Position numbers and translations under genes: made by a program. Source: a virus. From it: a stretch of 51,048 bases of DNA. Below are positions 1-45,603 of this stretch, one piece after another (positions within the stretch are counted from its first letter, which is position 1; each line of letters begins with the position of its first letter). The notes under the pieces were generated by a model. It worked only from the letters and a program-made list of their open reading frames with translations, made no database searches and was not told the DNA's origin. The stretch spans positions 1 through 51,048 of the IMG/VR virus record IMGVR_UViG_3300005099_000077, one strand, 5' to 3'.

Positions 1-91
1 AAGCTGCTGCGGTTTTGTCTATGAAATGATAGGTTCGCCCACAAAAGGGGCAGGTTACACTCGTTTTGGTAATCCGCATCCAATAGCTCAT
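1..91. repeat. Terminal direct repeat, left copy
   Basis: Bases 1-91 are identical to 50958-51048. An exact odd-length end overlap of this size is what a k-mer assembler leaves on a circular or circularly permuted molecule, so it is best read as one locus counted twice rather than a biological terminal repeat. It contains the first 30 codons of the zinc-ribbon gene that is complete at the right end. Confidence 0.95.
1..91 (-). CDS. Partial duplicate of the zinc-ribbon gene (N-terminal part)
   Basis: This is the first 30 codons of the 60-residue zinc-ribbon protein fully encoded at 50866-51048. It is cut by the window edge and appears here only because the circular sequence is repeated at its ends. 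The start codon at 91 overlaps the stop of the upstream 58-residue gene in an ATGA arrangement, which shows the natural operon order across the join. Confidence 0.7.
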   Translation of the reverse strand, partial: MSYWMRITKTSVTCPFCGRTYHFIDKTAAA

Positions 92-264
92 CCTTCCCAC
101 TCCTTGTCAAACATTTCGTGTTCAGGCCAGCCCCATTCTGCTGCCTCCTCCTCGAAGCGACAGAGCATTTCCCACAAATCCTGAACAAAAGCAGGAGGCA
201 ACTCTAATCCATATTCGTTTGCCAGGATAGTGACTTCATCCTCGAATAGAAGTTGATTCATCAT
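88..264 (-). CDS. Small acidic hypothetical protein, 58 aa
   Basis: A short reading frame starts at a double ATG (264) and ends in a TGA that overlaps the ATG of the next gene by four bases (ATGA), the spacing typical of this operon. The protein is acidic and rich in Glu and Trp (for example EEEAAEWGWPEHEMF near the C-terminus) and has no motif I recognise. Its place between two small - strand genes and the tight coupling support it as a real gene. Its function is unknown. Confidence 0.65.
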   Translation of the reverse strand: MMNQLLFEDEVTILANEYGLELPPAFVQDLWEMLCRFEEEAAEWGWPEHEMFDKEWEG

Positions 265-278
265 TGGTCAATCCCCCA

Positions 279-542
279 CTACCGGACACATTGTGGACGC
301 CGAAAAATGCTTTTCCATCCCCAATTAGTAAGATGAGGTCCCCAAACGTGTTCCCACCCCTGGGCCTCTAAAGATTTCTTCTCGTCAGGATAGTTGGGAT
401 TGCATAAAGAATGATTAGAATGATTATTGGAAAAGTAACAACAGGCGTCTACTTCAATATATTCATAGCCCGGCTCTACTGTGCCTCCTGTGAGCGCATA
501 TAAGTGCCACTCTGCAAGCTCTCCAGGATTAAGTTTGCGCAT
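279..542 (-). CDS. Hypothetical protein, 87 aa
   Basis: I chose the ATG at 542 (MRKLNPGELAEW) because a GGAGGGGG ribosome-binding site lies just upstream; the longer frame to 581 has no such site. The protein is rich in aromatic residues, Asn and His and has a CC pair near residue 35 and a Trp-rich stretch near residues 63-77. No family recognised. It overlaps the end of the coiled-coil gene upstream by 14 bases and so belongs to the same - strand operon. Confidence 0.65.
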   Translation of the reverse strand: MRKLNPGELAEWHLYALTGGTVEPGYEYIEVDACCYFSNNHSNHSLCNPNYPDEKKSLEAQGWEHVWGPHLTNWGWKSIFRRPQCVR

Positions 543-744
543 TATCCCCCTCCCACTGCCGGATAGGTTGGCTATATTCACAGTAACGCTCTTCCAGATA
601 ATTTATAAGCCGCCTGTATGCCGGACTAGACAGGGCTTCCTCCAACTCCAACCGTGCCCTCTCTATTTCCCGCTGGAGACGTATAATAGCCAACTCTTGT
701 TCTATAATGGCTGGGTCATTTTCAAACAGTAACTGTCTCGCCAT
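529..744 (-). CDS. Small coiled-coil protein, 71 aa
   Basis: The start at 744 (MARQLLFENDP) follows a GGGAGGAGACC ribosome-binding site and overlaps the end of the preceding gene by 23 bases. Residues about 8-45 form a charged amphipathic helix with heptad spacing of Ile and Leu, so the protein probably dimerises through a coiled coil. No enzymatic motif is visible. It is translated in the same operon as the HTH protein upstream and may be its partner, but that is inference from position only. Confidence 0.65.
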   Translation of the reverse strand: MARQLLFENDPAIIEQELAIIRLQREIERARLELEEALSSPAYRRLINYLEERYCEYSQPIRQWEGDNAQT

Positions 745-1804
745 TGGTCTCCTCCCTCGCCAAAGCTTCAAGCTCTTCCTCCTCCCGCCCTTGTTCACTG
801 GCAACAACTATTCGCTCTAGTGCGTCCAACTCTTTTGGAGACAAATCCGAAAGATGAACGCCCGGATTAGCCTCCAGGATGTTGGCAATCTTCGTTGCCA
901 TCGGGACAGGCGGACACTGCAAGTGCGCATACTTCTCCTTCAGGGGGTCATCTGCTATCATATCCAGCGTGCTCTGGCCCCATATTCGCACAAGCAGGTC
1001 GTGAGGAGACAAGGCGCTAGCCCACTCCCCTGGTCGGGCTTTGCGGGCCGGGCGTGGCGGCTGGCGCTTGTTATAGTGGGGCTTGATATAAAGTTTCTGT
1101 GACGGGTCAGGCATCATCCGCCAACGCCATTCCCCCATTGTGGGCGAACCCCTAACCTTAAGGTCTAACTCCTCCGTGTGGTCAGGGTCGTCATCTTTCC
1201 AGCCCCGCAGCCCATCGAGAGAAAGAACAGAAGCTTCGGCTTGTCGCTGACGTGCTTGAGAGCTTGTTTGTATGGCATTCAAGAAGCGCGTAACCAAAAA
1301 GCGAGATGACAAATGCGACGCATCTTTAGCGCGTTTTCCGCGCTTGAGGGCTTCAATAGCTGCCCGGTCAGCTACGCGGTCAATAAGGTCGAGGTTTGCC
1401 ATCTCGACATTCCACAAACCTCGTTCACGCAACAAAACCGTGAGACTATGTTGCAAGGCATTTTTGATGGCGACGAAATCTTCGGCCAGACCTTCACGTT
1501 CTAACCAGGCCAGCGTTTCAGGGTCGTCTAATTTTATCTGAGGGCGTCCGCGTCCAGCCTTTGGAGGAAGGTCAGGCAGGCGAGGAATTATGTCCACAAG
1601 GGGCGTTTTACCTTCGAGGCGTCGCTTGAGGTATTCACGTAGTTTGTCCCATTCGGGACATTGATAAACAATATCATTTAATAAGTCCTGTCCTACGTTT
1701 TCTACCTCAGCAATGCCTATGCGATAGAACGCCGCTATTTTTTCAATGGGCCAACCTTCCTCCAGCCGTAGACGGACAACCGCGCGTTGCTGCTTCGTAA
1801 GCAT
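722..1804 (-). CDS. HTH protein with sigma-region-4-like N-terminus, 360 aa
   Basis: The start at 1804 (MLTKQQRAVV) has a GGAGGG ribosome-binding site. Residues 1-40 (LTKQQRAVVRLRLEEGWPIE, then KIAAFYRIGIAEVENV) read like a helix-turn-helix of the sigma region 4/LuxR type: a run ending in RLRLEEG, then IA, then a second helix. The remaining 320 residues are not recognised. They include a charged helical region, a basic Pro/Arg stretch near residues 250-275, and an acidic C-terminus. The gene lies downstream of the amidotransferase gene in the same direction. A DNA-binding or RNA-polymerase-binding regulator is plausible, but a terminase-like or replication role cannot be excluded. Confidence 0.6.
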   Translation of the reverse strand: MLTKQQRAVVRLRLEEGWPIEKIAAFYRIGIAEVENVGQDLLNDIVYQCPEWDKLREYLKRRLEGKTPLVDIIPRLPDLPPKAGRGRPQIKLDDPETLAWLEREGLAEDFVAIKNALQHSLTVLLRERGLWNVEMANLDLIDRVADRAAIEALKRGKRAKDASHLSSRFLVTRFLNAIQTSSQARQRQAEASVLSLDGLRGWKDDDPDHTEELDLKVRGSPTMGEWRWRMMPDPSQKLYIKPHYNKRQPPRPARKARPGEWASALSPHDLLVRIWGQSTLDMIADDPLKEKYAHLQCPPVPMATKIANILEANPGVHLSDLSPKELDALERIVVASEQGREEEELEALAREETNGETVTV

Positions 1805-1853
1805 AGTATTCCCTCCTCTCTCCACTATTCCCTCCAGAAAACCCTACTTTATG

Positions 1854-3494
1854 TCAATCGTCCTTTTTTATCTTCTCTTCATCACTTCCTTCCGTGCTGT
1901 CCAACTGCGTTAACACCAACCCGATTGACGCAGCATAGTCGCACAATTCGCCAAAGTCAACCGGATGGCCCCGCAATTCCTCCAACAGAATGCGCGCTTC
2001 TTCGTATGCTGTCTCCGCATCCTCCTTCTGCCCATCACGGGCAAACGTATCGCCCAATCGCAGCCAAAAGGCTACCTCCTCGTATGTCCGGTGACACCGC
2101 ACCAAATCGGTTGTGGCGTTTGAGATACTTACTACTTTGCTTTCGCCTTCGTCCTCCTCAATGGCACGGGCCGCCGTCCAACGTCCTGTCCCTATCACCA
2201 CCTCCCTGATATACGTCTCTGGCACGCTATACCAGGCTTCCTGTATAATCTTCTCCCGCTCTTCCACCGTAAGCTCATTAACCCGATGGAAAACGGGATT
2301 GTCCAGCGTGCCGGTTATGTAGTAATCGGCATCATCAAACTCGTCTACCGCATTCGGATTTAACTCCTCTAAGCACATCCAAATGGGCAAACCCCACTTG
2401 CTCGAACGGAAGAAAGTGCGCTCTTCCTTTGGGTCGAAGTAAAACCAGACTTCCCCCTCAGCCAGCATTATGGCCCGACAGATGACGAACGGGTCGGAGT
2501 AGTCGGGATTGAAGGCCCATAGCGCATTCTCGAACCCGCCCACCTTCGTCCCCATATAGATACTCCGGTTGGGCCAGACAAGCCAGGACGTGCCCTCAAG
2601 GTCACTCCAATCGAACGCCAACGGGCCTAAATACAGCAGGTCTTCTTCGCGTCCTTCGAGGACAACGGCGGAGGCTATGCCCGCAAAGTCATCGTCATAT
2701 TCGTAACCCTCCGCTTCGGCAATGGTGGCCTCCTGCACTTCCGCCCGTTCCTCCTTCTTCTTTTTCTTCTTGCCCTTCTTCTTGCTTGTGTAGGACGTGT
2801 AATGATAGCTGGCTTCGCTCAGAAGACGGGCATTCTCCAACTCCTCGTAAGGTGTTTCAGTAACCCGAACGGGCAAGCTACAACCAGCCACCCGCCTTGT
2901 ATGTTCGGCAGGAATAAGGAAGGTGGGGATAACGCTTCCTAAAATCTCCGCCCCGGTCTCCGGGTGTTTACCTACTTCCAACAAGCCCCCGCTTTTGTAG
3001 ATATAGACGCCATCCTCTAACATAAACAAGGAAACGCCATCGCCCATTGTCACATAATTCGGGTCGAGGTCTTCCATTACGCGCCACATCACGTAGGCAT
3101 CAGAGACGTTGGGAGGGGCAGGCATCTCCACGCCTCTGGCAACCAGCGCCCACCACGCCATCCGCCAATCTGTCCACGTTCCGTTGAAGGCGTAGATAAC
3201 TTTGTTGCCCACAAAGGGCATACAAAGCTCGTCACACACTCGCCCAACGGAGGGAATGCGGGTGTGAAAGATGACGCCATAGCGCATTTTATCTTGATTT
3301 TCCCTTATTACCGCCAAAAGCTCAGCGGGTGTTTTGGCCACGCCCTTGACGCCTTTGAATTCTCCGGTTTCGGCGTCAATCCAGGCGATGCCGTTGCCCT
3401 TCCCTCCGCCTACCTTTATCAGGTGTGCCATATAGCCTACCAAAGTTTCATCACTCCAGGCTTCAGGATGAGGAATGTAAGCTAGTCTGCACAT
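1854..3494 (-). CDS. Class II (Ntn) glutamine amidotransferase-like protein, 546 aa
   Basis: Starting at the ATG at 3494 gives MCRLAYIP, placing Cys at position 2. That is the N-terminal nucleophile class II glutamine amidotransferases need, and it has a GGGAGG site at good spacing; the longer GTG start would bury the Cys. Residues about 70-140 show the expected order: FHTRIPSVG, a Cys-containing segment, then PFVGNKVIYAFNGTW (the HNG-type ammonia-site loop, here FNG) and SDAYVMWRVMED. A Lys-rich linker lies near residues 240-250, and the C-terminal quarter has a TPR-like helical pair. The domain would release ammonia from glutamine for the ligases encoded just upstream in the transcript. The C-terminal 300 residues are unassigned. 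Confidence 0.8.
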   Translation of the reverse strand: MCRLAYIPHPEAWSDETLVGYMAHLIKVGGGKGNGIAWIDAETGEFKGVKGVAKTPAELLAVIRENQDKMRYGVIFHTRIPSVGRVCDELCMPFVGNKVIYAFNGTWTDWRMAWWALVARGVEMPAPPNVSDAYVMWRVMEDLDPNYVTMGDGVSLFMLEDGVYIYKSGGLLEVGKHPETGAEILGSVIPTFLIPAEHTRRVAGCSLPVRVTETPYEELENARLLSEASYHYTSYTSKKKGKKKKKKEERAEVQEATIAEAEGYEYDDDFAGIASAVVLEGREEDLLYLGPLAFDWSDLEGTSWLVWPNRSIYMGTKVGGFENALWAFNPDYSDPFVICRAIMLAEGEVWFYFDPKEERTFFRSSKWGLPIWMCLEELNPNAVDEFDDADYYITGTLDNPVFHRVNELTVEEREKIIQEAWYSVPETYIREVVIGTGRWTAARAIEEDEGESKVVSISNATTDLVRCHRTYEEVAFWLRLGDTFARDGQKEDAETAYEEARILLEELRGHPVDFGELCDYAASIGLVLTQLDSTEGSDEEKIKKDD

Positions 3495-3495
3495 A

Positions 3496-4380
3496 TCAGT
3501 CACCCTCCCTTTCGATTATCTGCTTGAATAAATTCAGGTATGCGTCCTGCGAGATTTCTATCTTCAGGCCCGGCCCTGTGTTGACCTCCGAAACATAGGC
3601 CGTATCTGTGTCTTCTACATACATCACGTCCGCCGCGCCATACGTCAGGCCCAAAACATCAATGGCCTTAATGCCTGTCTGCAAAACGACGGAAGGAATT
3701 CGCCACGGTTTACGCGAATGAAAGCGATAGCCCGCTGCAAAATTCCACACCTTGCTGTCCCTGTCCCATTCGTCCTCGTCCACGACAACTTTGCGCTGGA
3801 CGAAAATCATATCGGGCGAATCGTCGTGTTGGGCATTCGTCCAGCCTACGTGTATTCTATACTCTCTGTCCTTTGGGATATAGGACATTGCGTAGCCCCG
3901 GCCCGCCTGCCGACAAGCGCTCGCCACCTCTTCGGATGTTTCGCAAAAATAAAAGCCGCGCCCGCCCTGGTGATTGGGCTTCCGCACAATCAGGGGCAAG
4001 CCCAGGCGTTCGACAAGAACATCCACAGGCTGAGGCAGGAGAAGGGTGGGAGGCACAGAAACACCGTGGTCGGCTAGAAATTGGCGCGCCCTGGGCTTGT
4101 TCGCAGCCAGGCCGATAGCGGCGGGAGACTGCACGTCTATGAGATTGTCGAAGTCGTAGCGGACGGAATAGGGACTTGTGCAGCCCCAACGCAGGAGAAG
4201 AACGGGCGTTCCATCACGGGGATGGCGGAAGCCTCTCTCCCTGTGCAGGCGGCCCAGGATGGACTTCCCCCACCGCACGCTTGTCCCGTAGGCGTCAAAG
4301 CCCATCTCCCGCAGGCGACGGCCTAACCGACGCGAGGTCGTTCCTGTTTTCCCCTTTAGCCCCGCAACGATTATAATCAT
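3496..4380 (-). CDS. ATP-grasp carboxylate-amine ligase (RimK-like), 294 aa
   Basis: The fold is visible as NKPRARQFL (residues 94-102), the nucleotide-binding lysine and glycine-rich loop RKPNHQGGRGF (133-143), SYIPKDREYRIHV (166-178), GAADVMYV (248-255) and the Mg-binding end motif SEVNTGPGLK (264-273). These are the hallmarks of RimK/COOH-NH2 ligase-type ATP-grasp enzymes, which join an amine to a carboxylate through an acyl phosphate. The N-terminus (MIIIVAGLKGKTGTT) looks like the family's Rossmann-like preATP-grasp part. The stop is one base before the amidotransferase start, and the amidoligase gene lies 11 bases upstream, so the three enzymes are co-translated. The substrate is unknown; a peptide or amino-acid ligation is expected from the family. 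Confidence 0.85.
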   Translation of the reverse strand: MIIIVAGLKGKTGTTSRRLGRRLREMGFDAYGTSVRWGKSILGRLHRERGFRHPRDGTPVLLLRWGCTSPYSVRYDFDNLIDVQSPAAIGLAANKPRARQFLADHGVSVPPTLLLPQPVDVLVERLGLPLIVRKPNHQGGRGFYFCETSEEVASACRQAGRGYAMSYIPKDREYRIHVGWTNAQHDDSPDMIFVQRKVVVDEDEWDRDSKVWNFAAGYRFHSRKPWRIPSVVLQTGIKAIDVLGLTYGAADVMYVEDTDTAYVSEVNTGPGLKIEISQDAYLNLFKQIIEREGD

Positions 4381-4391
4381 TGTTCGCCTCC

Positions 4392-5891
4392 TTAGAAATC
4401 TATCTCCTCATCTATCTCCTCATCCGGGTCTATATCGGGCCATTCGATTATGGCCTGGAAACGGTCAGGCAGGGTGTCCAGGACGCGCCGGGCTTCTTCA
4501 TCGTAGCGGCTATTGTGTATCATCTGAGTGTCGGCGTTGTCTATACGAGCATACTCATACATCTCCTCCAGGTCGGCCATCCACCTCAAGTTTGTTATTC
4601 TACCTAACCGCGCCATAATCCACCGCAGTATCTCCGCCGGATTGGGCCGGTAAGAACCCATCACGTGGGTGTTAATGGTGATAATGTTGGCGTTCTCATA
4701 CAGGTCACGGGTGACGCTTACCGTATTGGGGAGTATTCGGCACACACCATCTATGTGAGCATCCCAAAGTTCAACCATATTGGTCGCACAGTAAGCACTA
4801 GGTTTCCACCCGCCCAATGCATCCCACGTAAGCAGGTCGCTGAAGTTGCGAAAGACAAGCAGGATAGGCTTTGGCAGCGAGACGGCCAGAGCCACAGGAT
4901 ACTCCCCCGTCTCCCAATGGGCAAAGTTTCGCATATAATTTTCGTCCTTGTCAAACCATACGAAATTCCACACGTCACCTACCGGCGGCCTGCGTAAAGT
5001 GTCGTAAAGGTCATTAGTTGGGGCGTTAGCCTCCCGCCACCGGGCCAACTCCTCTTCGGTTGTAAAGCCCCAGGCCACCCGCAGGTCACGATTTTCCCGC
5101 CACGTGCGGCCCAATATAACGCACTGTTTCAGATAGCCTAACGCCCCAGCAATCTCCCGGTCACGATATAGCTGATATTTAGGCCAGGTTTTCGCCACGG
5201 CCCAAAAGTGCGCCTTCAGATGGGCGGTATTGTATTCGCTATAATCCTTTGCCAGGGCGTCTTTCGGTGGAGTATAGGGCCGAGGTGGAATGTGGCCGTT
5301 AAAGAATTCCCAGGCCACCATATAGGCCAGACTGAGGTAAGCCTTTGCAATGCCAGGCTCGACAATCCAGCTACCTGGGGCGCGATACTCCAGGCCGTGA
5401 GGCTGTTGTCGCCAATTAAAGAGACCGCCATAGGTGGTGTTCATTCGGCGCTGACGGGCATCCTCTCGTCCCTCAAGGAGGAGGGCCAAAGGCGCAAAGT
5501 GATAAGCTAGCACTTCCACCAAATCATTATAGATACTCTCCCGATGGAAACGTTTGGGAAAGCCAAAATGAATATGGCCACCCACCGGGTCAGGCCCTAC
5601 CATATTGCCCGCCTTTACCTTGAGGACGCGCATTCGGTGGCTATATGCAGCCTTTTCAGCCAGTTTACGGGTCAAGGCCCCGATAAGAATGCGCACGTTG
5701 TTCACGACTTCAACGGGCCGCACACCAGGCCGGGGACGAATTTCGCCTATATCGGGATGTCCGTCCAGCCCTATGTTTCCGCTCCGGCCTAGGTAACGGA
5801 TGTTAATGTCGTCGGCCATCACCTGCTGGCCCGTAAGAACATTGACATAACCGAATTCAGGGTCAGCCCCTAAAGAAAGTTGGACAGTCAT
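4392..5891 (-). CDS. phiEco32-type COOH-NH2 ligase (glutamine synthetase-like amidoligase), 499 aa
   Basis: Signature segments of the phage COOH-NH2 ligase type 2 family are present in order: GADPEFG (8-14), DGHPDIGEIRP (43-53), GGHIHFG (104-110) and EYRAPGSW (168-175). This family has a glutamine synthetase-like core that uses ATP to form amide bonds. The C-terminal 300 residues are rich in Trp and Tyr and are less familiar; they end in an acidic DEEIDEEIDF-type tail. The start codon overlaps the stop of the upstream gene (ATGA). The neighbours are an ATP-grasp ligase and a glutamine amidotransferase, so this is part of a small pathway that probably makes or attaches an amide-linked modification. 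The target (cell wall, DNA base, virion protein or host protein) is not shown by the sequence. Confidence 0.85.
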   Translation of the reverse strand: MTVQLSLGADPEFGYVNVLTGQQVMADDINIRYLGRSGNIGLDGHPDIGEIRPRPGVRPVEVVNNVRILIGALTRKLAEKAAYSHRMRVLKVKAGNMVGPDPVGGHIHFGFPKRFHRESIYNDLVEVLAYHFAPLALLLEGREDARQRRMNTTYGGLFNWRQQPHGLEYRAPGSWIVEPGIAKAYLSLAYMVAWEFFNGHIPPRPYTPPKDALAKDYSEYNTAHLKAHFWAVAKTWPKYQLYRDREIAGALGYLKQCVILGRTWRENRDLRVAWGFTTEEELARWREANAPTNDLYDTLRRPPVGDVWNFVWFDKDENYMRNFAHWETGEYPVALAVSLPKPILLVFRNFSDLLTWDALGGWKPSAYCATNMVELWDAHIDGVCRILPNTVSVTRDLYENANIITINTHVMGSYRPNPAEILRWIMARLGRITNLRWMADLEEMYEYARIDNADTQMIHNSRYDEEARRVLDTLPDRFQAIIEWPDIDPDEEIDEEIDF

Positions 5892-6676
5892 AGCACGCCC
5901 CTCCTTCTCATTTCATAGTATACGTCGTTAACTCTTTGTGGTGTTAAGGCATTCCACAAGTCTTCAACGTCTTCATAAATGTCACTAAGATAACGTAAAA
6001 CAGTGCCCACACTGGTATCAAAGTAATTAGCCGTTGTCTGATAAAGAGTGTCCAAAAGTGTTTCCTTAGCAAAGATGGGATGAGCAATAACCAATCTTGT
6101 CTCGCTATCGCAGTGCCGACAAAGATGAGCCGATTGGCCGAAACAACGAAACAATGCCCAACATTTCTCTTTCCAATCAGAGTTAATCATTACAGGACAG
6201 TTAAAGCGGTTGTCCCATAAATTAGGCCATAACTCCTTATGGCGTAAGGCATCCCATAACCGCACATAATCGGCCATATTGTCGGTGTGACATATCGGTA
6301 TTGTAAAAACGCTTTCGATGTTATCGTTCCGCAGGATGGGCGTATAGCGACGTATACGCTCACGCATTCGGTAAGCCCTGGCCAACGTGCTGTATTGGGC
6401 CTTGACTATGTTGCGCAAAAGGCCCACCCGAAAAGTAGGCGGGGCAATCAAGGCCCACAACCAGCTCGCCCGCTTGAGTAAATCAGGATTGTCAAGCAAA
6501 AACACGCGCAGGTCTTCCACAGGCTCAGGCCAAACGGCATCCAGGTGAGAACCCGCCCGCACATAGAGAGCATCCCATCGCTGTGAAAAACGTCCAGGAA
6601 GCTTATTAGTCCCTTTAATGCGGTGAACATAAACGCACCTGTATTTATTCCCACGCACCTTAAAGAAACGAGACAT
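5888..6676 (-). CDS. Hypothetical protein at head of amidoligase operon, 262 aa
   Basis: The start at 6676 has an AGGAGGTGCGAA leader, and the stop overlaps the amidoligase start by four bases, so this is the first gene of the four-gene operon. The protein is basic, rich in Arg, Trp and Tyr, and has a Cys cluster near residues 167-195 (CPVMINSDWKEKCW, then CRHCDSE) that could bind a metal. No family recognised. It could be a substrate-binding or target-recognition partner of the amidoligase enzymes, which is inference from operon position. Its C-terminal RRRGVL resembles the ERGVL end of the gene at 7622-8326, but I see no wider similarity. Confidence 0.7.
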   Translation of the reverse strand: MSRFFKVRGNKYRCVYVHRIKGTNKLPGRFSQRWDALYVRAGSHLDAVWPEPVEDLRVFLLDNPDLLKRASWLWALIAPPTFRVGLLRNIVKAQYSTLARAYRMRERIRRYTPILRNDNIESVFTIPICHTDNMADYVRLWDALRHKELWPNLWDNRFNCPVMINSDWKEKCWALFRCFGQSAHLCRHCDSETRLVIAHPIFAKETLLDTLYQTTANYFDTSVGTVLRYLSDIYEDVEDLWNALTPQRVNDVYYEMRRRGVL

Positions 6677-6699
6677 TTCGCACCTCCTCTTACGTCTTC

Positions 6700-6756
6700 G
6701 CTTTGGCCTCGATGAGGAAGGAGGATAACATCCTCCGCCCTCATCGAGGCCAAAGC
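6700..6756 (-). other. Long perfect hairpin in the amidoligase operon leader
   Basis: An 18-bp perfect inverted repeat (GCTTTGGCCTCGATGAGG and its complement, 6700-6717 and 6739-6756) encloses a second 7-bp stem (GGAGGAT/ATCCTCC) around a 3-base loop. The arm core GCCTCGATGA occurs again just outside the hairpin at about 6755-6764. It lies 24-80 bases upstream of the operon's first start codon. No U-run follows on the - strand, so it looks more like a leader structure or RNA-processing/stability element than a terminator. Confidence 0.75.
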
Positions 6757-6937
6757 CTCGATGAAGGGGATTTTAGGAGGGCCGTAGCCGTCCAGGGGTG
6801 TTGTAACCAATGGGACTACTGCCCCCCTGCCCGCCAGCCACACTCACCCCTTCCTACCCTGGCCTTCCGGCGGACAGGCCGAGGGCCTATTGGCGAACGG
6901 ATAAAATATAACATTAAATCCGCCGCCTTTGTATGCA

Positions 6938-7133
6938 GGGCGCAGCCCCCGACGTGCGCCCAGCACCCCTCCAGGCATCCTCACCCTTACGGGTGGAACG
7001 AGGCCGTAGCCTCTGGAGGTAAGCAGGCCCCGTCTGGCGGGAGTTACTAGGAAAGCCGGGCGGCTTTCGTGCTCTCCTCCCTGCGTCACCGCCATTGGCC
7101 CAGGGCGAGAGGGCGGAGGTTTTGCTCTCCGCC
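6938..7133 (-). ncRNA. Candidate structured RNA with multi-stem fold
   Basis: Read on the - strand, this gap folds into many short perfect stems: GGCGGAG/CTCCGCC (7112-7133), GAAAGCC/GGCTTTC (7051-7068), a three-way junction closed by CCTCCAG/CTGGAGG (6968-6974 with 7013-7019) with two inner hairpins, and GGGCGCA/TGCGCCC (6938-6961). The inner hairpins are capped by C(TACG)G and C(GTAA)G on the - strand, which are the stable UNCG and GNRA tetraloop classes. On the + strand the loops would be CGTA and TTAC, so the - strand is the likely transcript. GCAGGG/CCCTGC could close the whole element. No protein start with a ribosome-binding site lies inside. Class unknown. Confidence 0.55.
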
Positions 7134-7140
7134 TAGCAAA

Positions 7141-7200
7141 TTGGGCCGTGGGGAGTTGAACCCCTAGACCTCAAACCCTGCATCCGCGCAGCGGCCCAAA
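7141..7200 (-). other. tRNA-like element without anticodon arm
   Basis: On the - strand an 8-bp perfect acceptor-like stem (TTGGGCCG at 7199-7192, CGGCCCAA at 7148-7141) encloses a small CTGC-gcggat-GCAG hairpin and a typical T-arm (GGGG-TTCAACT-CCCC). Between them are only about 12 bases instead of an anticodon arm, so the length is about 58 instead of 72-76. It is not a functional tRNA. It overlaps the last codons of the gene ending at 7164. It could be a decayed tRNA, an RNase P target or a tRNA-mimic domain. Confidence 0.5.
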
Positions 7201-7625
7201 AAGTCATTCCGCAGGTGTGCATCCCTGGCCAGAACTTCCGCCAAATAGTCCAGGTGTAGCGTCAGGCAAGTATTGGCTACCGTTGTGCAATCCCGTAGCC
7301 CTGGAATGCCCTCGACATAGGAGGATTGCCAAACCCGCCCGCCACAAACCCACTCGCCATAATGTCCCTGCACTATGGCGAAAAGAATTTCAGCGTTGGG
7401 CACACAACAAAACATATAGTGACGCGGTTTGCTCCTATCATAGGGCGGGTGGCGGTCGCCCCACTTCCGCAAAAACCGATTGCGGCGTTGGGCGCGCATT
7501 GCCAGGGCGGACATCTGACGTTGCTTTTTTCGCCTTGCCCGCTTGCTATCACGAGGCGCAATGGCTACCGATTGAAGATATTTTACTCGCTTAATTAGAT
7601 ATTTAATCCTTTCGTCTGCGTTCAT
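7164..7625 (-). CDS. Basic hypothetical protein, 153 aa
   Basis: The ATG at 7625 (MNADERIKYL) overlaps the upstream stop (ATGA) and has a GGGGAG site; the longer frame to 7655 lacks one. The N-terminal 60 residues are strongly basic and helical (RARRKKQRQ and RAQRRNRF runs), suggesting nucleic-acid binding. The rest contains several Cys residues (CC near 72, single Cys later). No family recognised. The last codons overlap the tRNA-like element. Confidence 0.65.
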   Translation of the reverse strand: MNADERIKYLIKRVKYLQSVAIAPRDSKRARRKKQRQMSALAMRAQRRNRFLRKWGDRHPPYDRSKPRHYMFCCVPNAEILFAIVQGHYGEWVCGGRVWQSSYVEGIPGLRDCTTVANTCLTLHLDYLAEVLARDAHLRNDFLGRCADAGFEV

Positions 7626-8326
7626 AATACTCCCCTCTCCTTCAGCCAATCCCAATGGAGGCGGTCGGCCTTCCGATACAGAGCCTCAATATGTAAAGGC
7701 GGTTCCATCCGCAGGCTCGTCCGCCCATAGGACGGACTTTCGTGCGGCTCAACTATCACGCCGTCGTCCTCCGTCCAAAGAAACCATCGAGACGCCTGAT
7801 ATGAACTAATCCAACCCCAATCGGGCCGTCTAACTACCACGCCGTAGTAAGTCGCCCGAATATGTGCAGGTTCGATTGGAGGCAACGGTGGGCTATTCAC
7901 TTCATATAGCATTGTGGCTACATCGCTCAGCATCAGCATCGCCGCCTCATTTATACGGTCGCTTTCGTCAAACGGTGGCGTAGCGAATAGCCGAGGCGAC
8001 GTGGGCCGCCAAATGGCAAGCACATCGGTAAAGTAGAACAACGCCTTGACGTGTATTCGCCGCCCCATTAAGCGAATGTTTCCCCGAATAACCCGCCACC
8101 GGTCGTCTTGCCATTCGCCATCAATTATGTGGTAAGCCCACCGCTTGCCTTGCTGGTATGCCACCTCTACCTGTCGCTGATAAACTTCGGACGAACAGGT
8201 AGCGAATGCCGTGGGCAATCGGTTTACCCTCGAACACCCAAACCACCCATCCACAGGCGGCCATAAGGTTGGGCTAACAAACGCTTTAACAAAGTTTTCC
8301 CGTCCAAATCCTCTCCGTTCCGGCAT
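7622..8326 (-). CDS. Hypothetical protein, 234 aa
   Basis: The start at 8326 has a GAGGGGGAT ribosome-binding site, and copy 3 of the conserved 39-bp element ends 11 bases upstream, so this gene opens a new transcript. The protein is soluble, rich in Trp, Arg and Pro, and I recognise no motif. Its stop overlaps the next gene by four bases, so the two form an operon. Confidence 0.65.
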   Translation of the reverse strand: MPERRGFGRENFVKAFVSPTLWPPVDGWFGCSRVNRLPTAFATCSSEVYQRQVEVAYQQGKRWAYHIIDGEWQDDRWRVIRGNIRLMGRRIHVKALFYFTDVLAIWRPTSPRLFATPPFDESDRINEAAMLMLSDVATMLYEVNSPPLPPIEPAHIRATYYGVVVRRPDWGWISSYQASRWFLWTEDDGVIVEPHESPSYGRTSLRMEPPLHIEALYRKADRLHWDWLKERGVL

Positions 8327-8337
8327 TTTATCCCCCT

Positions 8338-8376
8338 CATATATCAGGCAAATAATGCGACAATAATTTTACATAA
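8338..8376 (-). promoter_or_regulatory. Conserved 39-bp upstream element, copy 3
   Basis: Gapless match to two other copies. On the - strand it reads TTATGT, then TGTCGCATT, then TTGCC and ATATATG, ending 11 bases before the ATG at 8326. No sigma-70 -35/-10 pair fits all copies, so it may be a phage-specific promoter or operator. Confidence 0.7.
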
Positions 8377-8384
8377 TAAGTCCA

Positions 8385-8403
8385 GGCGGGGCCAGGCCCC
8401 GCC
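8385..8403 (-). terminator. GC-rich hairpin, possible terminator
   Basis: GGCGGGG-ccagg-CCCCGCC forms a 7-bp perfect stem directly after the 26-residue gene ending at 8409 and just before copy 3 of the 39-bp element in transcription direction. It separates two transcription units, but the U-rich tail is weak. Confidence 0.5.
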
Positions 8404-8408
8404 GCAGG

Positions 8409-8489
8409 TTAGTCACCCAGGGGCGGGCAATCCTCCCGCTTGTATTCGGCCTCCAGGTCTTCCCAGGTCTCCACATCCTTCTCTGGCAT
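8409..8489 (-). CDS. Acidic microprotein, 26 aa
   Basis: ATG at 8489 is preceded by a GGGAGG site six bases upstream and followed by 26 acidic codons (MPEKDVETWEDLEAEYKRED and six more) before TAA. It fits between two neighbours without large gaps. Too short for family assignment; supported mainly by the ribosome-binding site. Confidence 0.45.
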   Translation of the reverse strand: MPEKDVETWEDLEAEYKREDCPPLGD

Positions 8490-8492
8490 CGC

Positions 8493-8678
8493 CTACCTCC
8501 CTTTCAAGCAGGTGAGCATCTTGAGTTGTTCGGGCGTTAAATCAGTTTGCCAGTTATCAGGCAAGTTTCCGCCCGCATAGTCAGCAGCGATTATAAAAAC
8601 GAGGCGGGCCGTTTCTTTGTCGCAGCCCGTTAGGGACTGAATTAACGCCAAACAATCGGCTATATCGTTCCACGTCAT
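8493..8678 (-). CDS. Small hypothetical protein, 61 aa
   Basis: ATG at 8678 has a GGAGGTAAGGC site, six bases after the end of the upstream gene. The protein is helical (MTWNDIADCLALIQSLTGCD, then ETARLVFIIAADYAGG) with two Cys in the first helix, and is mildly acidic. No family recognised. Confidence 0.6.
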   Translation of the reverse strand: MTWNDIADCLALIQSLTGCDKETARLVFIIAADYAGGNLPDNWQTDLTPEQLKMLTCLKGR

Positions 8679-8684
8679 TTTGCC

Positions 8685-9035
8685 TTACCTCCTTCTGGCA
8701 ACATACGCCGCCAACCTTCGGGCGCTTCCCCAGGCCATCTCCTCCAACGTCATTCCAGGCCGATAATACTTTCGGCCCCGCTTTGACTTGTAGAACGCTT
8801 TGCACTTTTCGGGATGAGCCATCAGGTCTATATACTGGATTGCCGCAAAGATATTGAATGCACTCCAGACGCCCTCAAGGTCGGCCTTTACCAGGTCATA
8901 GAGGGCGCTTTTGCGCGCCCGCTTGTGGCGGTCAATAGCCGCCTGAACGTCCTCGATTAGGCCAGCAGGCGGCAAGCCTTCGTTTGCCTTCTTTGCCTGT
9001 AAATGCCTGAGATATAACTCCTTCGCCCAACTCAT
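8685..9035 (-). CDS. Hypothetical helical protein, 116 aa
   Basis: ATG at 9035 follows a TAGGAGGGC site. The protein is largely helical and basic, with KSKRGRKYYRPG near residues 83-94 and an Arg-rich C-terminus (AAYVARRR), suggesting contact with nucleic acid. No motif recognised. It lies in a run of small - strand genes with consistent spacing. Confidence 0.6.
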   Translation of the reverse strand: MSWAKELYLRHLQAKKANEGLPPAGLIEDVQAAIDRHKRARKSALYDLVKADLEGVWSAFNIFAAIQYIDLMAHPEKCKAFYKSKRGRKYYRPGMTLEEMAWGSARRLAAYVARRR

Positions 9036-9046
9036 CGCTTGCCCTC

Positions 9047-9334
9047 CTATACGAACATTAAACTGGCCTGATGAACGGTCAGCAAAACGCTTTCCTGATT
9101 GTTCAGCCGCTTAATGTCAGCGGCCAGTTGGCGCGCGGTCTCAAGCGCGCGGTCTACATCCCCCGTGTCAGTCACCAAAATCTCAATGCCCAGGGAATTC
9201 TCCTGGCCACCCATCCAGCAGCCCGCCGCTTCATAGACGGTGAAGCCATCAGGAAAAGCGCCCGCCGCTAGGCGGATAACCTTGTCCTTGTTCAGGTTTT
9301 CGGTATACAGGCGAATGCAAATAGCCTTTTCCAT
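9047..9334 (-). CDS. Phage protein of a small alpha/beta family, 95 aa
   Basis: I chose ATG at 9334 (MEKAICIRLYTENLNKDKV) because of the GGGAGGGC site; the longer frame covers a strong hairpin and is unlikely. The pattern (beta strand, TENLNKDKV, then FPDGFTVYEAAGCWMGGQEN, SLGIEILV and NNQESVLLTV near the end) resembles small phage proteins with a ferredoxin-like fold that have been seen in many phages without a known role. Function unknown. Confidence 0.6.
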   Translation of the reverse strand: MEKAICIRLYTENLNKDKVIRLAAGAFPDGFTVYEAAGCWMGGQENSLGIEILVTDTGDVDRALETARQLAADIKRLNNQESVLLTVHQASLMFV

Positions 9335-9361
9335 TTTGCCCTCCCTCCATTTTAAGATTGT

Positions 9362-9409
9362 CTGCAAACCAAAGAGGCGGGCGGTTAGCCCGCCGCTTTC
9401 CGTTTGCAG
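9362..9409 (-). terminator. Strong intergenic hairpin
   Basis: Nested inverted repeats CTGCAAAC/GTTTGCAG (outer, 8 bp) and GGCGGGC/GCCCGCC (inner, 7 bp, 5-base loop) fill the gap between two - strand genes. No U-run follows, so it may be an RNA-processing or stability hairpin rather than a classic terminator. Confidence 0.55.
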
Positions 9410-9416
9410 GCAACCC

Positions 9417-9623
9417 CTAACCGTTGGGCCACGTAAAGCCGTAGGCTTTGGCCCGGACGTAGAGGGCAACCTTGCCGCCGTTGGCGCGGGCAATCAGGGC
9501 CAGCTTCTCCAAAAGCTTCTCCTCCGCCGCCGTCTCTACGGTATGAACCACCTTGTTATCCCGCCCCACCAACACGGTCTTGCCATTCCTGTTCTTAACG
9601 TCCAGCCTTAGCGCCCTGGCCAT
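9417..9623 (-). CDS. Small basic protein, 68 aa
   Basis: ATG at 9623 (MARALRLDVKNRNGK) follows an AAAGGAGGTGACGGGG leader; a GTG three codons earlier lies inside that leader. The first half has beta-strand character (LDVKNRNGKTVLVGRDNKVV), the second a helix and strand. No family recognised. The start overlaps the end of the zinc-ribbon gene upstream by 29 bases. Confidence 0.6.
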   Translation of the reverse strand: MARALRLDVKNRNGKTVLVGRDNKVVHTVETAAEEKLLEKLALIARANGGKVALYVRAKAYGFTWPNG

Positions 9624-9759
9624 CCCCGTCACCTCCTTTCCGTCTACACTTAGAGCATACGCCCCATACCGCTTCCTTCGGGCTTAACTTTCGGCCACAA
9701 TTTTGACAATGTGGCGTTCGATTTTTGCCCTTGATTTTGATTGTCTTTTTCCCCATCAT
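9595..9759 (-). CDS. Small zinc-ribbon protein, 54 aa
   Basis: The frame starts at an ATG overlapping the upstream stop (ATGA at 9756-9759) after a GGAGGG site. Two CxxC pairs, HCQNCGRKL (near 17-25) and GVCSKCRRK (near 33-41), make a classic four-Cys zinc ribbon, preceded by a basic KKTIKIKGKNR segment. Such small phage zinc ribbons often bind nucleic acid or RNA polymerase, but no specific role is shown. It overlaps the next gene by 29 bases in another frame. Confidence 0.65.
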   Translation of the reverse strand: MMGKKTIKIKGKNRTPHCQNCGRKLSPKEAVWGVCSKCRRKGGDGDGQGAKAGR

Positions 9760-10310
9760 CCCTCCAGTCTCAAGTCTACTACAAGCTCATTGGGCGGTGT
9801 ATCGGCAAACCATTCGCCATCCTCCCACTTTGGCGTATAGCCACATAAGGCTACAATCCCGTTTGCCAGCCCTTCCGGGTCGCCAAATCTCAGGTATGGC
9901 GGTATCTTGTTTCTTAAGACGGTCAAAGTCAAATGGTGTCCAATTTCGTGCAACCAAATTGGGACTAGCATCCCCGGCCTATGCTTCATCACGTTTGGCA
10001 AGTAGATTTTGAACAGGGCAAATCTTTCGTCTGAGGCCAGCCAGTTGTAGCAGGCCACCCTGTGTGGATTTTCATCACATCGTTTGGTCACAATGTCCAG
10101 CCGATAACCCCATCCCGCCGCCGAAGGAAACTTTTGTTCGATTAACCTCATTGCCTCATCGAATGCCTCTTTGATTATATCCGGCCAGCGGTTTGAGCTT
10201 ATCGCGTCTTGCCAAAACGCCGCAATCTCTTCGGCCTCTTCCCTTAATCTTTTCTCTTTTGTGTTAACCCAACTAGGCCATTGGCCTTTGCGTTTGCGTC
10301 GCCTGGACAT
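9756..10310 (-). CDS. ImmA/IrrE-like zinc metallopeptidase, 184 aa
   Basis: Start at ATG 10310 (MSRRRKRKG), which has GGAGGGC at proper spacing; the earlier ATG at 10325 lies in the 39-bp element. HEIGHH at residues 121-126 supplies the HExxH zinc motif, and Glu146 in DPEGLANGI lies 21 residues after the second His, as in gluzincins. The E..AN pattern is typical of ImmA/IrrE peptidases, which cleave repressors or toxins' partners. The N-terminus is very basic. No repressor gene is adjacent. It is the first gene after copy 2 of the 39-bp element. Confidence 0.7.
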   Translation of the reverse strand: MSRRRKRKGQWPSWVNTKEKRLREEAEEIAAFWQDAISSNRWPDIIKEAFDEAMRLIEQKFPSAAGWGYRLDIVTKRCDENPHRVACYNWLASDERFALFKIYLPNVMKHRPGMLVPIWLHEIGHHLTLTVLRNKIPPYLRFGDPEGLANGIVALCGYTPKWEDGEWFADTPPNELVVDLRLEG

Positions 10311-10322
10311 AGCAATGCCCTC

Positions 10323-10361
10323 CATATATTAGGCAACAAATGCGACATAGAATTGACATAA
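10323..10361 (-). promoter_or_regulatory. Conserved 39-bp upstream element, copy 2
   Basis: Same gapless element as at 8338 and 12242. It ends 12 bases upstream of the ATG at 10310 and directly abuts the GGAGGG ribosome-binding site, implying a very short mRNA leader if the ATATAT part acts as a -10. Confidence 0.7.
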
Positions 10362-10363
10362 CG

Positions 10364-10435
10364 CTAGGGCCTAAATACCACATAGAACACGCCTGTCACC
10401 AATGCCCAAAGGCCAAAGACAAAGAGCAATGCCAT
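10364..10435 (-). CDS. Single-pass membrane microprotein, 23 aa
   Basis: A very strong AAAGGAGGTG site precedes ATG 10435 by six bases, followed by 23 almost wholly hydrophobic codons (MALLFVFGLWALVTGVFYVV, then FRP). It is one transmembrane helix with a short basic end. Existence rests on the ribosome-binding site and the fit between neighbours; the role is unknown. Confidence 0.55.
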   Translation of the reverse strand: MALLFVFGLWALVTGVFYVVFRP

Positions 10436-10450
10436 CGCTTTCACCTCCTT

Positions 10451-10756
10451 TCAGTCAAGTAATCCCTTGTGTGTCCAGGCCAGCCAATGCAGCCAAACCG
10501 TCCCCGCGAAAGCGGCCTTTTCCTTGTCGCTTAAATCGGCAATCCATTCCCCATCCCGGTCGCCCCAATAGACGGAAACGTAGTTGCGGCCTTTATAGTG
10601 TGGCGGCAAGACAACGCCGCCGCTTCGCCATTTCACTTCGCCCGTCCAGGTATCCGGCAAGCTTTCGGCTACAACTAAAGCGGCCTTGTTGACGGTCTCA
10701 TAATGTTCATAATCGGCATTGTCGCCTAACCTAATCCAGACATATCGCTTGTCCAT
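10451..10756 (-). CDS. Hypothetical protein, 101 aa
   Basis: ATG at 10756 (MDKRYVWIRLGD) follows GGAGGTGACTAGA. The protein is soluble, with many Trp and Tyr residues and an early beta strand, then an Ala-rich helix, then a short WxxxLxDKEK motif region. It ends 15 bases before the microprotein start. No family recognised. Confidence 0.6.
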   Translation of the reverse strand: MDKRYVWIRLGDNADYEHYETVNKAALVVAESLPDTWTGEVKWRSGGVVLPPHYKGRNYVSVYWGDRDGEWIADLSDKEKAAFAGTVWLHWLAWTHKGLLD

Positions 10757-10757
10757 T

Positions 10758-10847
10758 CTAGTCACCTCCATTATACTTTCGGTATATCGCGTATCCGATT
10801 AACCAGAACACAATCCACTTTGTTATGTAAACAATCCACTTTATCAT
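10758..10847 (-). CDS. Single-pass membrane microprotein, 29 aa
   Basis: ATG at 10847 follows the stop of the upstream gene by two bases and an AGAGGG site; the frame (MIKWIVYITKWIVFWLIGYA, then IYRKYNGGD) is one amphipathic transmembrane helix with two WIV repeats. Its last codons carry the GGAGGTGA ribosome-binding site of the next gene, which supports coupling. Confidence 0.55.
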   Translation of the reverse strand: MIKWIVYITKWIVFWLIGYAIYRKYNGGD

Positions 10848-10849
10848 CC

Positions 10850-11113
10850 TTAACCCTCTTCCTCAAACGCTTCCCTGCAAACGTCGCCATCATCAGTGCA
10901 GGCATAGAACTGCACCCAAACGTTATCGTCTACATCGTAAAGCTTTTCCTCGATTGTCTCTAACATTGGTGTCACAATGTGGCCTTCTTCTGTATATTCT
11001 TCTAACACGGTGTCCAGATATTCTAATGCCGCGTCTTCATCGAGAAAGGCCACATTGTCTTCTGGTAAACATCCGTAAAATCCCCAGGCCACGTGATAAT
11101 GTAGAGGCAACAT
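10850..11113 (-). CDS. Acidic hypothetical protein, 87 aa
   Basis: ATG at 11113 has a GGGGAGGGGG site. The protein is strongly acidic (EEYTEEGHIV and DDGDVCREAFEEEG at the end) with a hydrophobic N-terminus rich in His and aromatic residues. Acidic small early proteins of phages often bind host proteins, but nothing identifies a target here. Confidence 0.6.
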   Translation of the reverse strand: MLPLHYHVAWGFYGCLPEDNVAFLDEDAALEYLDTVLEEYTEEGHIVTPMLETIEEKLYDVDDNVWVQFYACTDDGDVCREAFEEEG

Positions 11114-11114
11114 T

Positions 11115-11351
11115 TTACCCCCTCCCCTTTACATAATCTAACGTGATTTTAATCCAGGCCAACAGAAAGTTTACCGTGATTAGGCCAACTATGATATTGC
11201 GCAATACGCCAACACCAGTATAAAGCAAGTAGGATTTTACGCCAATAGCATAGCATTGGCCTATATATGTGCTGGATTGCGCAATTGCTAGCGTCAACAG
11301 CCAGCCCTGGATTAAAGCTTTGTGTTCTGGTATAAGCTTTGGCCTTTTCAT
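11115..11351 (-). CDS. Two-helix membrane protein, 78 aa
   Basis: ATG at 11351 overlaps the upstream stop (ATGA) with a GAGGT site. Two hydrophobic segments are visible (about 14-30 and 46-70), flanked by a basic N-terminus (MKRPKL) and C-terminus (KGRG), so both ends are probably cytoplasmic. Role unknown; an early membrane protein such as a superinfection-exclusion factor is possible but not shown. Confidence 0.6.
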   Translation of the reverse strand: MKRPKLIPEHKALIQGWLLTLAIAQSSTYIGQCYAIGVKSYLLYTGVGVLRNIIVGLITVNFLLAWIKITLDYVKGRG

Positions 11352-12241: not shown

Positions 12242-12280
12242 CATATATTAGGCAAAAAATGCGACACAGAGTTAACATAA
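12242..12280 (-). promoter_or_regulatory. Conserved 39-bp upstream element, copy 1
   Basis: First of three gapless copies (others at 10323 and 8338). Shared invariant parts on the - strand are TTATGT, TGTCGCATT, TTGCC and ATATATG. It lies partly in the 43-base gap between two genes, directly before a strong ribosome-binding site. Confidence 0.7.
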
Positions 12281-18568: not shown

Positions 18569-18790
18569 ATGGCACGAAGACGAAGCAGAAAAAGCACGTC
18601 CAGATATAAAGCAACCGGCCCTGTGGGTACGGGTGTGCGCTTCAGGAAGCTGGTTGCGGCTTTGAGAAAGCGCGGCGCTAAGAATCCCAAGGCGCTTGCT
18701 GCCTGGATTGGGCGCAAGAAATACGGAAAGAAGCGGTTCCAGAAAATGGCGGCTCGTGGTCGTAGCCGCAAAGCTAGACGACGGAAGTAA
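18569..18790 (+). CDS. Small Arg/Lys-rich phage protein, 73 aa
   Basis: ATG 18569 follows GAGGGT. The core NPKALAAWIGRKKYGKKRFQ is a pattern I recognise from small basic proteins near terminase genes in diverse phages; both ends are clusters of Arg and Lys. Probably nucleic-acid binding. The stop overlaps the large terminase start by one base (TAATG). Confidence 0.7.
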   Translation: MARRRSRKSTSRYKATGPVGTGVRFRKLVAALRKRGAKNPKALAAWIGRKKYGKKRFQKMAARGRSRKARRRK

Positions 18791-20178
18791 TGGCTTACCA
18801 ATCGCGTGCTCATATACCGTGGTCGCTTAAGGCCCCGTTATATGAGGCGATAGGTTATAAGCCTTTTGGTGCGCAAGAACCGTTTCATCGCAGCACGGCT
18901 TTACATCGCATCTTCGGGGCTGGTAACCAATCGGGGAAAACCTATTGTGGAGCGAGGGAGATTTTTCCGCAGCTAGTCATCCCCATCTACGACCCGACCT
19001 TGGGGGCAGCGCGAGGCCGACGTGGTTGGGTTGTTGTCCCGCGTTATTCGTTGGCCGACCCGATAGTTAGCGAAATAATCAATGTGCTGGAAATGTTTGG
19101 CTTCAAGCGGGTGGCGCGAGGCGGGACGTTACGCGAGGGCGAATTCCATTGGGCAAAGAAAACTCATCACCTTACCGTCTGGACTGGCGCGGAGTTGTGG
19201 GTCAAATCGGCGGATGAACCTGCTGCATTGCACGCACAACCCCTCGACTGGATTCTGATAGACGAGGGAGGTCTGGTGCCATTTGAGATTTACCAGGTCT
19301 CCCTTGTTCCGCGTTTGACGGTTACCGGCGGGTGGATTGCTGCCCTGGGGACGTTCGAGGACACCATTGTTGGTAAGTGGTTTGAGGATTACTGGTACAT
19401 CGGGCAGATGCCGAACGACCGGGGCATCGAAAGTTTCCGTCACCCCACGACCGCTAACCCTTACGTGGATAAAGCGTGGCTAGAAGAGCAACGCAAAAAC
19501 TATGACCCCGATTTGTTTGCCGCCCGATTCGAGGCCATTCCTAAGCCGAACACGCGCCTGGTATTCCGCACGTTTAGCTTTGCCGACCACGTAGATGCTG
19601 AGCTTGCGACGTTTGACCCCCAACTTCCCGTTTATTTAGGTGTTGACCCCGGTGGCGTCTATGGTGTGGTTGTTCTTCAAATTAAATATGTCGAAGGCCG
19701 GGGGGATGTCGTTTGCGTTATAGACGAATACTACGACCAATCAGGCAAAGCCACACCAACCATTGTTGATGAGCTTCGCAAGCGTAAATGGTGGCGAAAC
19801 CTGGGCCTGAACGGGGAGATGATGGGGGCCATTGACAAGGCCAACAAGGAGAGCCGACAGTTGTGGAGGAATGCGGGTGTCAAGTTGGCCATCAATGCCG
19901 TCCCCATTGAAGCAGGAAACGACCTGCTGCGGTCATTCCTTAGCCAACGACGCTTTGTCGTTCACCCCAAGTGTCGGAACTTCTTGTTGGAGATGAAGAA
20001 GTATTCTTACCCCCGGCGGACGGCGGGCCGTGAAGTGCGCGCCGGTCGTCCTGTGGACGAGTATAACCACCTCATTAAGGCCACGATTTATTTCTTGGTG
20101 GCCAAATTTGGTTGGTGCGGTATTCGTCCCGATAAGCGGCAGGCGATTCCGCCGCGCCGTTGGTGGAGTTTGAAATGA
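18790..20178 (+). CDS. terL: Large terminase subunit, 462 aa
   Basis: ATPase domain: Walker A GAGNQSGKT (43-51) and Walker B WILIDEGG with catalytic Glu159. Nuclease domain: VYLGVDPGG with metal-binding Asp286, a second acidic strand near residue 313 (VIDEYYDQ) and the C-terminal DEYNHLIKA near residue 437, matching the RNase H-like terminase fold. It packages DNA into proheads with the portal. It starts at a TAATG overlap and its stop overlaps the portal start (ATGA). Confidence 0.92.
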   Translation: MAYQSRAHIPWSLKAPLYEAIGYKPFGAQEPFHRSTALHRIFGAGNQSGKTYCGAREIFPQLVIPIYDPTLGAARGRRGWVVVPRYSLADPIVSEIINVLEMFGFKRVARGGTLREGEFHWAKKTHHLTVWTGAELWVKSADEPAALHAQPLDWILIDEGGLVPFEIYQVSLVPRLTVTGGWIAALGTFEDTIVGKWFEDYWYIGQMPNDRGIESFRHPTTANPYVDKAWLEEQRKNYDPDLFAARFEAIPKPNTRLVFRTFSFADHVDAELATFDPQLPVYLGVDPGGVYGVVVLQIKYVEGRGDVVCVIDEYYDQSGKATPTIVDELRKRKWWRNLGLNGEMMGAIDKANKESRQLWRNAGVKLAINAVPIEAGNDLLRSFLSQRRFVVHPKCRNFLLEMKKYSYPRRTAGREVRAGRPVDEYNHLIKATIYFLVAKFGWCGIRPDKRQAIPPRRWWSLK

Positions 20179-45409: not shown

Positions 45410-45414
45410 AGCCC

Positions 45415-45603
45415 CTAACTCCACAGTCTTTCAAGCTCTGCTAGAATAGTATACCCAACCACATATGTCAAACCTAGTGCGCCTAAACAAGCTATGGCAC
45501 GGGCGGTTTGGTCAGGATAGCGGGTTACCCCGATTATAAGTGGGACAACAACCAGCCCGCCCACGCCCAGGCGTAGCAGATAGAGAAGGAGTTTCTCTTT
45601 CAT
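45415..45603 (-). CDS. Two-helix membrane protein, 62 aa
   Basis: Start follows AGGAGGGC. Two hydrophobic helices (about 5-25 and 36-54) and a positively charged N-terminus. It lies between the nucleotide-metabolism gene and the polymerase. Role unknown. Confidence 0.6.
   Translation of the reverse strand: MKEKLLLYLLRLGVGGLVVVPLIIGVTRYPDQTARAIACLGALGLTYVVGYTILAELERLWS

Follow-up and report, generated by a model that had tools for sequence, protein, structure and literature searches.

A compact operon with a COOH-NH2 ligase, an ATP-grasp ligase and a class II amidotransferase in a metagenomic virus: a possible reduced variant of the phiEco32-type amidoligase module

We analyzed the metagenomic virus IMGVR_UViG_3300005099_000077 (51,048 nt; the whole stretch is hereafter called the window) with a focus on an operon of four minus-strand genes running from position 6676 to position 1854. 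It encodes, in this order, an orphan protein, a PF14395 COOH-NH2 ligase, a RimK-like ATP-grasp ligase and a class II N-terminal nucleophile (Ntn) glutamine amidotransferase (UNK-LIG-GRASP-GATII). Because the window carries identical 91-bp direct terminal repeats, it was taken as a complete virus genome. The operon genes and the repeats are as follows.

5888..6676, minus strand: orphan first gene, 262 amino acids (aa), with a Cys cluster C-x5-C-x7-C-x2-C
4392..5891, minus strand: COOH-NH2 ligase (PF14395), 499 aa; the domain covers residues 1-277 and is followed by a 220-aa C-terminal extension
3496..4380, minus strand: RimK-like ATP-grasp ligase, 294 aa
1854..3494, minus strand: class II (Ntn) glutamine amidotransferase/amidohydrolase, 546 aa; the domain covers residues ~1-210 and is followed by a 330-residue C-terminal part
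1..91, with a second copy at 50958-51048, no strand: 91-bp direct terminal repeat, marking a complete genome

The original prediction, made from the DNA letters, had described these genes as a tightly coupled operon, and their packing bears this out. The stop codon of the first gene and the start codon of the second overlap by four bases (ATGA), genes 2 and 3 are separated by 11 bases, and genes 3 and 4 by a single base. All four starts are preceded by a ribosome-binding site of the AGGAGG/GGAGGG type, and the codon usage of the sense frame agrees with that of other phage genes (correlation 0.53-0.77, compared with at most 0.34 in any other frame); on these grounds the four open reading frames (ORFs) were regarded as real genes. 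Their previously given coordinates and strand were retained except for the start of the amidotransferase, which was moved from GTG 3503 to ATG 3494 (M-C-R-L). Since the nucleophile of Ntn enzymes is the mature N-terminal Cys, a Met-Cys start is needed; the predicted start at ATG 3494 puts this residue at position 2, whereas GTG 3503 would bury it at position 5.

The COOH-NH2 ligase matches PF14395 over the whole model (positions 1-253; E=7.5e-31, 108 bits), and residues G8, D10, E12, H106, Y154, G155, E168 and R170 are invariant in an alignment of 66 sequences (the window protein and 65 relatives). Its structure model is of mixed quality (mean predicted local distance difference test score, pLDDT, of 56); among its highest-ranking structural matches are YbdK, glutamine synthetase, GshA and Dop, i.e., the expected superfamily, with a best E of 2e-3 and low template modelling (TM) scores. 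No known relatives were matched by the 220-aa C-terminal extension. The ATP-grasp ligase matches the RimK-like family PF08443 above the cut-off (1.3e-5), the phage ATP-grasp family phrog_2599 (6e-22) and a hidden Markov model (HMM) of the ATP-grasp copies of other phages (1.3e-34). Its closest profiles are alpha-L-glutamate ligases of the RimK group, and K95, D251, E265 and N267 are invariant in comparison with five phage homologues.

The amidotransferase is recognized by an HMM built solely from class II glutamine amidotransferases (GATases) of other phages (E=2.8e-5), and M1-C2, H77, R79, G84, P93, N104 and G105 are invariant in a 52-sequence alignment. In Foldseek searches its structure model matches EgtC, the GlmS glutaminase and PurF with E about 1e-4; the first 120 residues of the model are good, and most of the C-terminal half has a pLDDT below 50. 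The N-terminal domain is thus predicted to be a class II Ntn fold that keeps the Cys, Arg and Asn-Gly residues. This fold of about 200 residues and the same residues are common to EgtC and the GlmS glutaminase, but the window protein differs from both in having no recognized synthase domain and in its C-terminal 330 residues, for which no relative was matched. At least two CxxC pairs are present in the last 140 residues of 59 of 85 relatives, whereas the C-terminal part of the window enzyme has none. The three enzyme families named in the original prediction are therefore assigned, two of them by Pfam HMMs and the third by the phage-built HMM together with structural matches, and the catalytic-type residues are kept in all three.

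That prediction also held that the amidotransferase supplies ammonia. EgtC hydrolyses a gamma-glutamyl amide and feeds no ammonia to a synthase, and because this enzyme is among the best structural matches, ammonia supply becomes only one option. EgtC-type hydrolysis and the use of glutamine with ammonia passed to a partner appear equally compatible with the structure model.

The first gene has no significant homologue in Pfam, PHROGs, NCBIfam, PADLOC, INPHARED (tblastn, E<=10) or IMG/VR, and an anti-phage defence library gave no match. The 262-residue partner and the C-terminal half of the amidotransferase, both previously described as unfamiliar, were accordingly unmatched in our searches as well. 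The orphan had been called Cys-rich, a description that is fair if the enrichment is taken as mild: there are 7 Cys in 262 residues, four of them clustered at about residues 172-189. Directly upstream of its ribosome-binding site lies an additional feature.

6700..6756, minus strand: RNA hairpin with a near-perfect 27-bp stem and a 3-nt loop

The 81-nt segment of this hairpin has a folding energy (dG) of -51.4 kcal/mol and a z score of -7.7. It is not a simple terminator, since it has no T-run, and a role in RNA processing or mRNA stabilization may be considered. Beside it, the flanking CATCGAGG could pair with CCTCGATG as a smaller alternative hairpin. Matches of the hairpin to microRNA families in Rfam were all far under the gathering scores and were dismissed as chance.

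We then compared the operon with related loci. A tblastn search with the ATP-grasp protein gave 308 phage records, and a degenerate scan of IMG/VR gave 144 relatives, 80 of which were kept. Members were counted in 50 loci with enough flanking sequence. The ATP-grasp protein had led to most of them, and the counts hold for this sample. A class II GATase was present in 49 loci, a PF14395 ligase in 47, a PF12224 amidoligase in 47, an unnamed 180-aa protein in 44 and a class I GATase in 38, usually in the order GATI-GATII-LIG-180aa-AMID-GRASP. Annotated examples include Salinivibrio phage CW02, Rhizobium phage RHph_N3_13, Pseudomonas phage TC6, Klebsiella phage Asterion, oyster phage T5S1-k141_18163 and the phiEco32-like Escherichia phage Bas89, which carry a class I GATase (in the stretch of Bas89 none is annotated), a class II GATase, a COOH-NH2 ligase, an amidoligase and an ATP-grasp enzyme, often together with gamma-glutamyl cyclotransferase (GGCT). 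An unnamed protein of about 180-200 aa (the TC6_050 family, e.g., L004:6497-7045, with 78 further members in the fetched loci) lies between the COOH-NH2 ligase and the PF12224 amidoligase; TC6_050 has no Pfam match, and the family appears to be a sixth member of the module's core.

The clustering of a class II GATase, a PF14395 ligase and an ATP-grasp enzyme is thus common to the window and the phiEco32-type module of phiEco32-like, LUZ24-like and Zobellviridae phages. The genomic setting is also similar. In named phages the cassette usually lies just upstream of genes for primase/helicase, sigma factor and DNA polymerase, and the window operon occupies the same replication-gene neighbourhood: it belongs to a leftward block that extends beyond the terminal repeat to genes for a DnaB helicase (50487-49408), a PD-(D/E)XK/Cas4-like nuclease, a Toprim primase and a DNA polymerase. 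This block is headed, upstream of the operon, by a perfect sigma-70 promoter match (12/12, TTGACA-17-TATAAT; 12758-12730, minus strand). As the three enzymes form the standard core of a published module found in hundreds of phages, their combination is not new, and a wholly new system was rejected.

What is unusual here, beyond the original prediction, is the set of absent members and a bacterial-type ligase. Profile searches of the complete window genome found no PF12224 amidoligase, which 47 of the 50 relatives keep. Likewise, HMMs from other phages gave no match to a class I GATase in the complete genome (38 of 50 relatives) and no significant match to the 180-aa protein (44 of 50), and neither GGCT nor a GATase_6-type protein was matched in the complete genome. 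The window also differs from the phiEco32-type module in its own orphan first gene, in the lack of CxxC pairs noted above and in gene order (UNK-LIG-GRASP-GATII). All similarities between the orphan and the 180-aa family are weak: phmmer gave E=0.021 and 0.42 for two closely related members, and in a search with a subfamily HMM the orphan ranked first in the window at a non-significant E of 0.45. None of 60 shuffles gave such a match to this family. We take these values (E=0.021-0.45) as a hint only and do not claim a relationship.

The structural matches raise the possibility of a soluble product, either a gamma-glutamyl-type peptide or a small metabolite, with the PF14395 enzyme acting like EgtA, GshA or YbdK, the ATP-grasp enzyme extending the dipeptide and the Ntn enzyme trimming gamma-glutamate as EgtC does. 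YbdK and GshA are the best matches of the ligase model and EgtC is the best match of the amidotransferase model, and the roles of EgtC and GshA, in ergothioneine and glutathione synthesis, concern free gamma-glutamyl compounds. However, structural likeness at this level gives the fold and not the substrate, the match of the ligase is weak, no sulfur or redox gene was recognized nearby, and GGCT, which would recycle gamma-glutamyl compounds, is absent. We consider a product of this kind unlikely.

Our preferred reading, to which we give roughly even chances, is that the operon represents a reduced and strongly diverged variant of the phiEco32-type amidoligase module, acting on a cell-surface or cell-wall peptide early in infection. 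The module is predicted to modify cell-wall peptides and to give superinfection exclusion in PMC11945000, PMC10580990, PMC11318856 and PMC11253131, all of which draw on Iyer et al. 2009. A phage-encoded amide-forming pathway, as proposed in the original prediction, is accordingly what this literature also expects of the module (PMC11945000, PMC10580990). From these comparisons we infer the reaction, substrate and purpose of the window operon as follows. At an early stage of infection, both ligases, the ATP-grasp enzyme and the PF14395 protein, would convert a carboxylate into an acyl phosphate and couple it to an amino group, so that amino acids would be ligated sequentially onto a cell-surface peptide. 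This would leave one or two unusual amide links on a short peptide, for which the stem peptide or the cross-bridge of the host peptidoglycan is the most likely candidate. The class II Ntn enzyme may release ammonia for an amidation step or remove gamma-glutamyl groups as EgtC does. The expected benefit would be the exclusion of competing phages or the preparation of the wall for lysis.

Several points weigh against this proposal. The amidotransferase lies below Pfam detection and received no assignment in Pfam, PHROG or NCBIfam. The early type of the operon is judged from gene position. Since the second amidoligase, the class I GATase and GGCT are missing, the product may differ from that of the canonical phages. 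Furthermore, in the literature searched we found no experimental test of the product, target or function of the module, and the cell-wall target is a prediction that goes back to one source (Iyer et al. 2009).

The target could instead be a protein. The RimK-like enzyme and the PF14395 ligase would then attach amino acids to a protein of the ribosome, the RNA polymerase or the virion, with the orphan providing target recognition. The relationship of the ATP-grasp profile to RimK-group alpha-L-glutamate ligases, some of which modify proteins, is consistent with this, as are the protein targets proposed for other phage ATP-grasp ligases and the zinc-binding-like Cys cluster of the orphan. Nevertheless, the operon holds no gene for a target, and the substrates of GCS-like ligases are usually small molecules. 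The window also has the same enzyme set as a module for which PMC10580990 and PMC11945000 predict wall peptides as substrates. Protein tagging therefore appears improbable to us.

The ancestry of the COOH-NH2 ligase sets the window further apart from the canonical phages. The protein closest to it comes from a member of the spore-forming bacteria, Paenibacillus sp. IHB B 3084 (WP_134914728.1; L124:7548-8771, pHD02), with 31% identity over residues 4-277 (294 columns, 82 bits; E=3e-11 in a search of the plasmid collection), compared with at most 47 bits for the best phage PF14395 copies, and within the compared set the two proteins are reciprocal best hits. The Paenibacillus protein scores 336 bits against PF14395 and the window ligase 108 bits, both over the whole model, whereas two canonical phage ligases reach 42-45 bits over part of it. 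In addition, the EYR motif is followed by SNxW in most phage copies (68 in the survey) but not in the window ligase. Given this nearest relative, the ligase looks as if it was acquired from, or is common to, a chromosomal lineage of Bacillota, as far as sequence comparison can tell. A PF14395 tree was discarded for placing the window ligase, because long branches meet in it and the position is unsure. The Paenibacillus gene lies between cotE and mutS-mutL; the stretch was deposited as a plasmid, yet it looks chromosomal, with miaA and hfq also there. The alignment reaches the very C-terminus of the Paenibacillus protein, in which a 150-aa N-terminal part precedes the domain and nothing follows it, while the window ligase lacks that part and has its C-terminal extension. 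Moreover, unlike in the window, no ATP-grasp or GATase gene is annotated beside the Paenibacillus ligase gene.

Ligases of a similar type were also found as second PF14395 copies in IMGVR_UViG_3300045256_000426 (L092), IMGVR_UViG_3300047444_000187 (L108) and a Desulfobacterota genome contig (L127), all of which have EYR followed by a non-SNxW motif, as in the window ligase. The second ligase gene of L092 and L108 is directly preceded by one for a Cys-rich protein (200-260 aa), with class II GATase and ATP-grasp genes close by, an arrangement comparable to that of the window. Unlike the window, all three also carry a canonical PF14395 copy; L092 and L108 have GGCT as well, and L127 has an amidoligase-like gene. 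A search for the first gene beside other COOH-NH2 ligases had been suggested, but these Cys-rich neighbours do not align with the orphan beyond chance and were rejected as homologues. An alignment did not support a C-terminal extension common to the window ligase and L108, and the idea that the second-type ligase generally replaces PF12224 was dropped, as L127 has two PF14395 copies together with an amidoligase-like gene.

The operon might also be a distinct minimal pathway and not a decayed module. In that case a cotE-mutS-type Bacillota ligase, the ATP-grasp enzyme, the diverged Ntn amidohydrolase and the orphan would be self-sufficient and make a product unlike that of the canonical six-gene module, with the Cys-cluster orphan as a possible carrier or target adaptor. 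Similar ligases beside a Cys-rich protein also occur in other virus contigs. We regard such a pathway as somewhat doubtful and place it behind a reduced variant of the phiEco32-type module.

Beyond the operon, the adjoining gene at 722-1825 (minus strand) encodes a 367-aa protein whose N-terminus weakly matches sigma-70 region 4/helix-turn-helix (E 0.011); sigma factor genes also lie close to several canonical cassettes. The element TGTCGCATTNNTTGCCTAATATATG stands directly before three leftward genes (8338-8362, 10323-10347 and 12242-12266, minus strand), compared with 0 expected in shuffles, and is possibly a phage promoter or translation leader. A transfer RNA (tRNA)-like fold at 7142-7198 (minus strand) has a 7-bp acceptor-type stem (TGGGCCG/CGGCCCA), a small hairpin and a T-arm GGGGTTCAACTCCCC, and no anticodon arm. 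It overlaps the end of ORF 7164-7655, has a fold z of only -0.7, and was not called by ARAGORN or at Rfam gathering thresholds; it could be an attachment-site remnant or chance. For the terminase (18790-20178) and the DNA polymerase (43532-45424), the distant matches include Thermus phages of the P23-45/TSP4 group. A related virus, IMGVR_UViG_3300021509_000004, shares about 72-85% DNA identity over the common parts of the virion and replication regions; it says nothing on the conservation of the operon, since this 40-kb fragment ends on either side of it and has no counterpart of window positions 1-11347.

The replication block also contains a nucleoside 2-deoxyribosyltransferase-like gene (45613-46074, minus strand), which is the one point in favour of an operon that puts an amino-acid or amide group on the bases of the phage DNA. 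This gene sits apart from the operon, however, and no thymidylate-hydroxylase, base-modifying or glycosyltransferase gene was found among the proteins scanned; we regard DNA modification as very improbable.

The amidoligase module is widespread in phages. Of the sets encountered in this study, the version described here, comprising two ligases and one Ntn enzyme, is the smallest from which its chemistry could be reconstituted. The resemblance of its COOH-NH2 ligase to a chromosomal one encoded next to cotE in Bacillota, in turn, offers a cellular counterpart to study.

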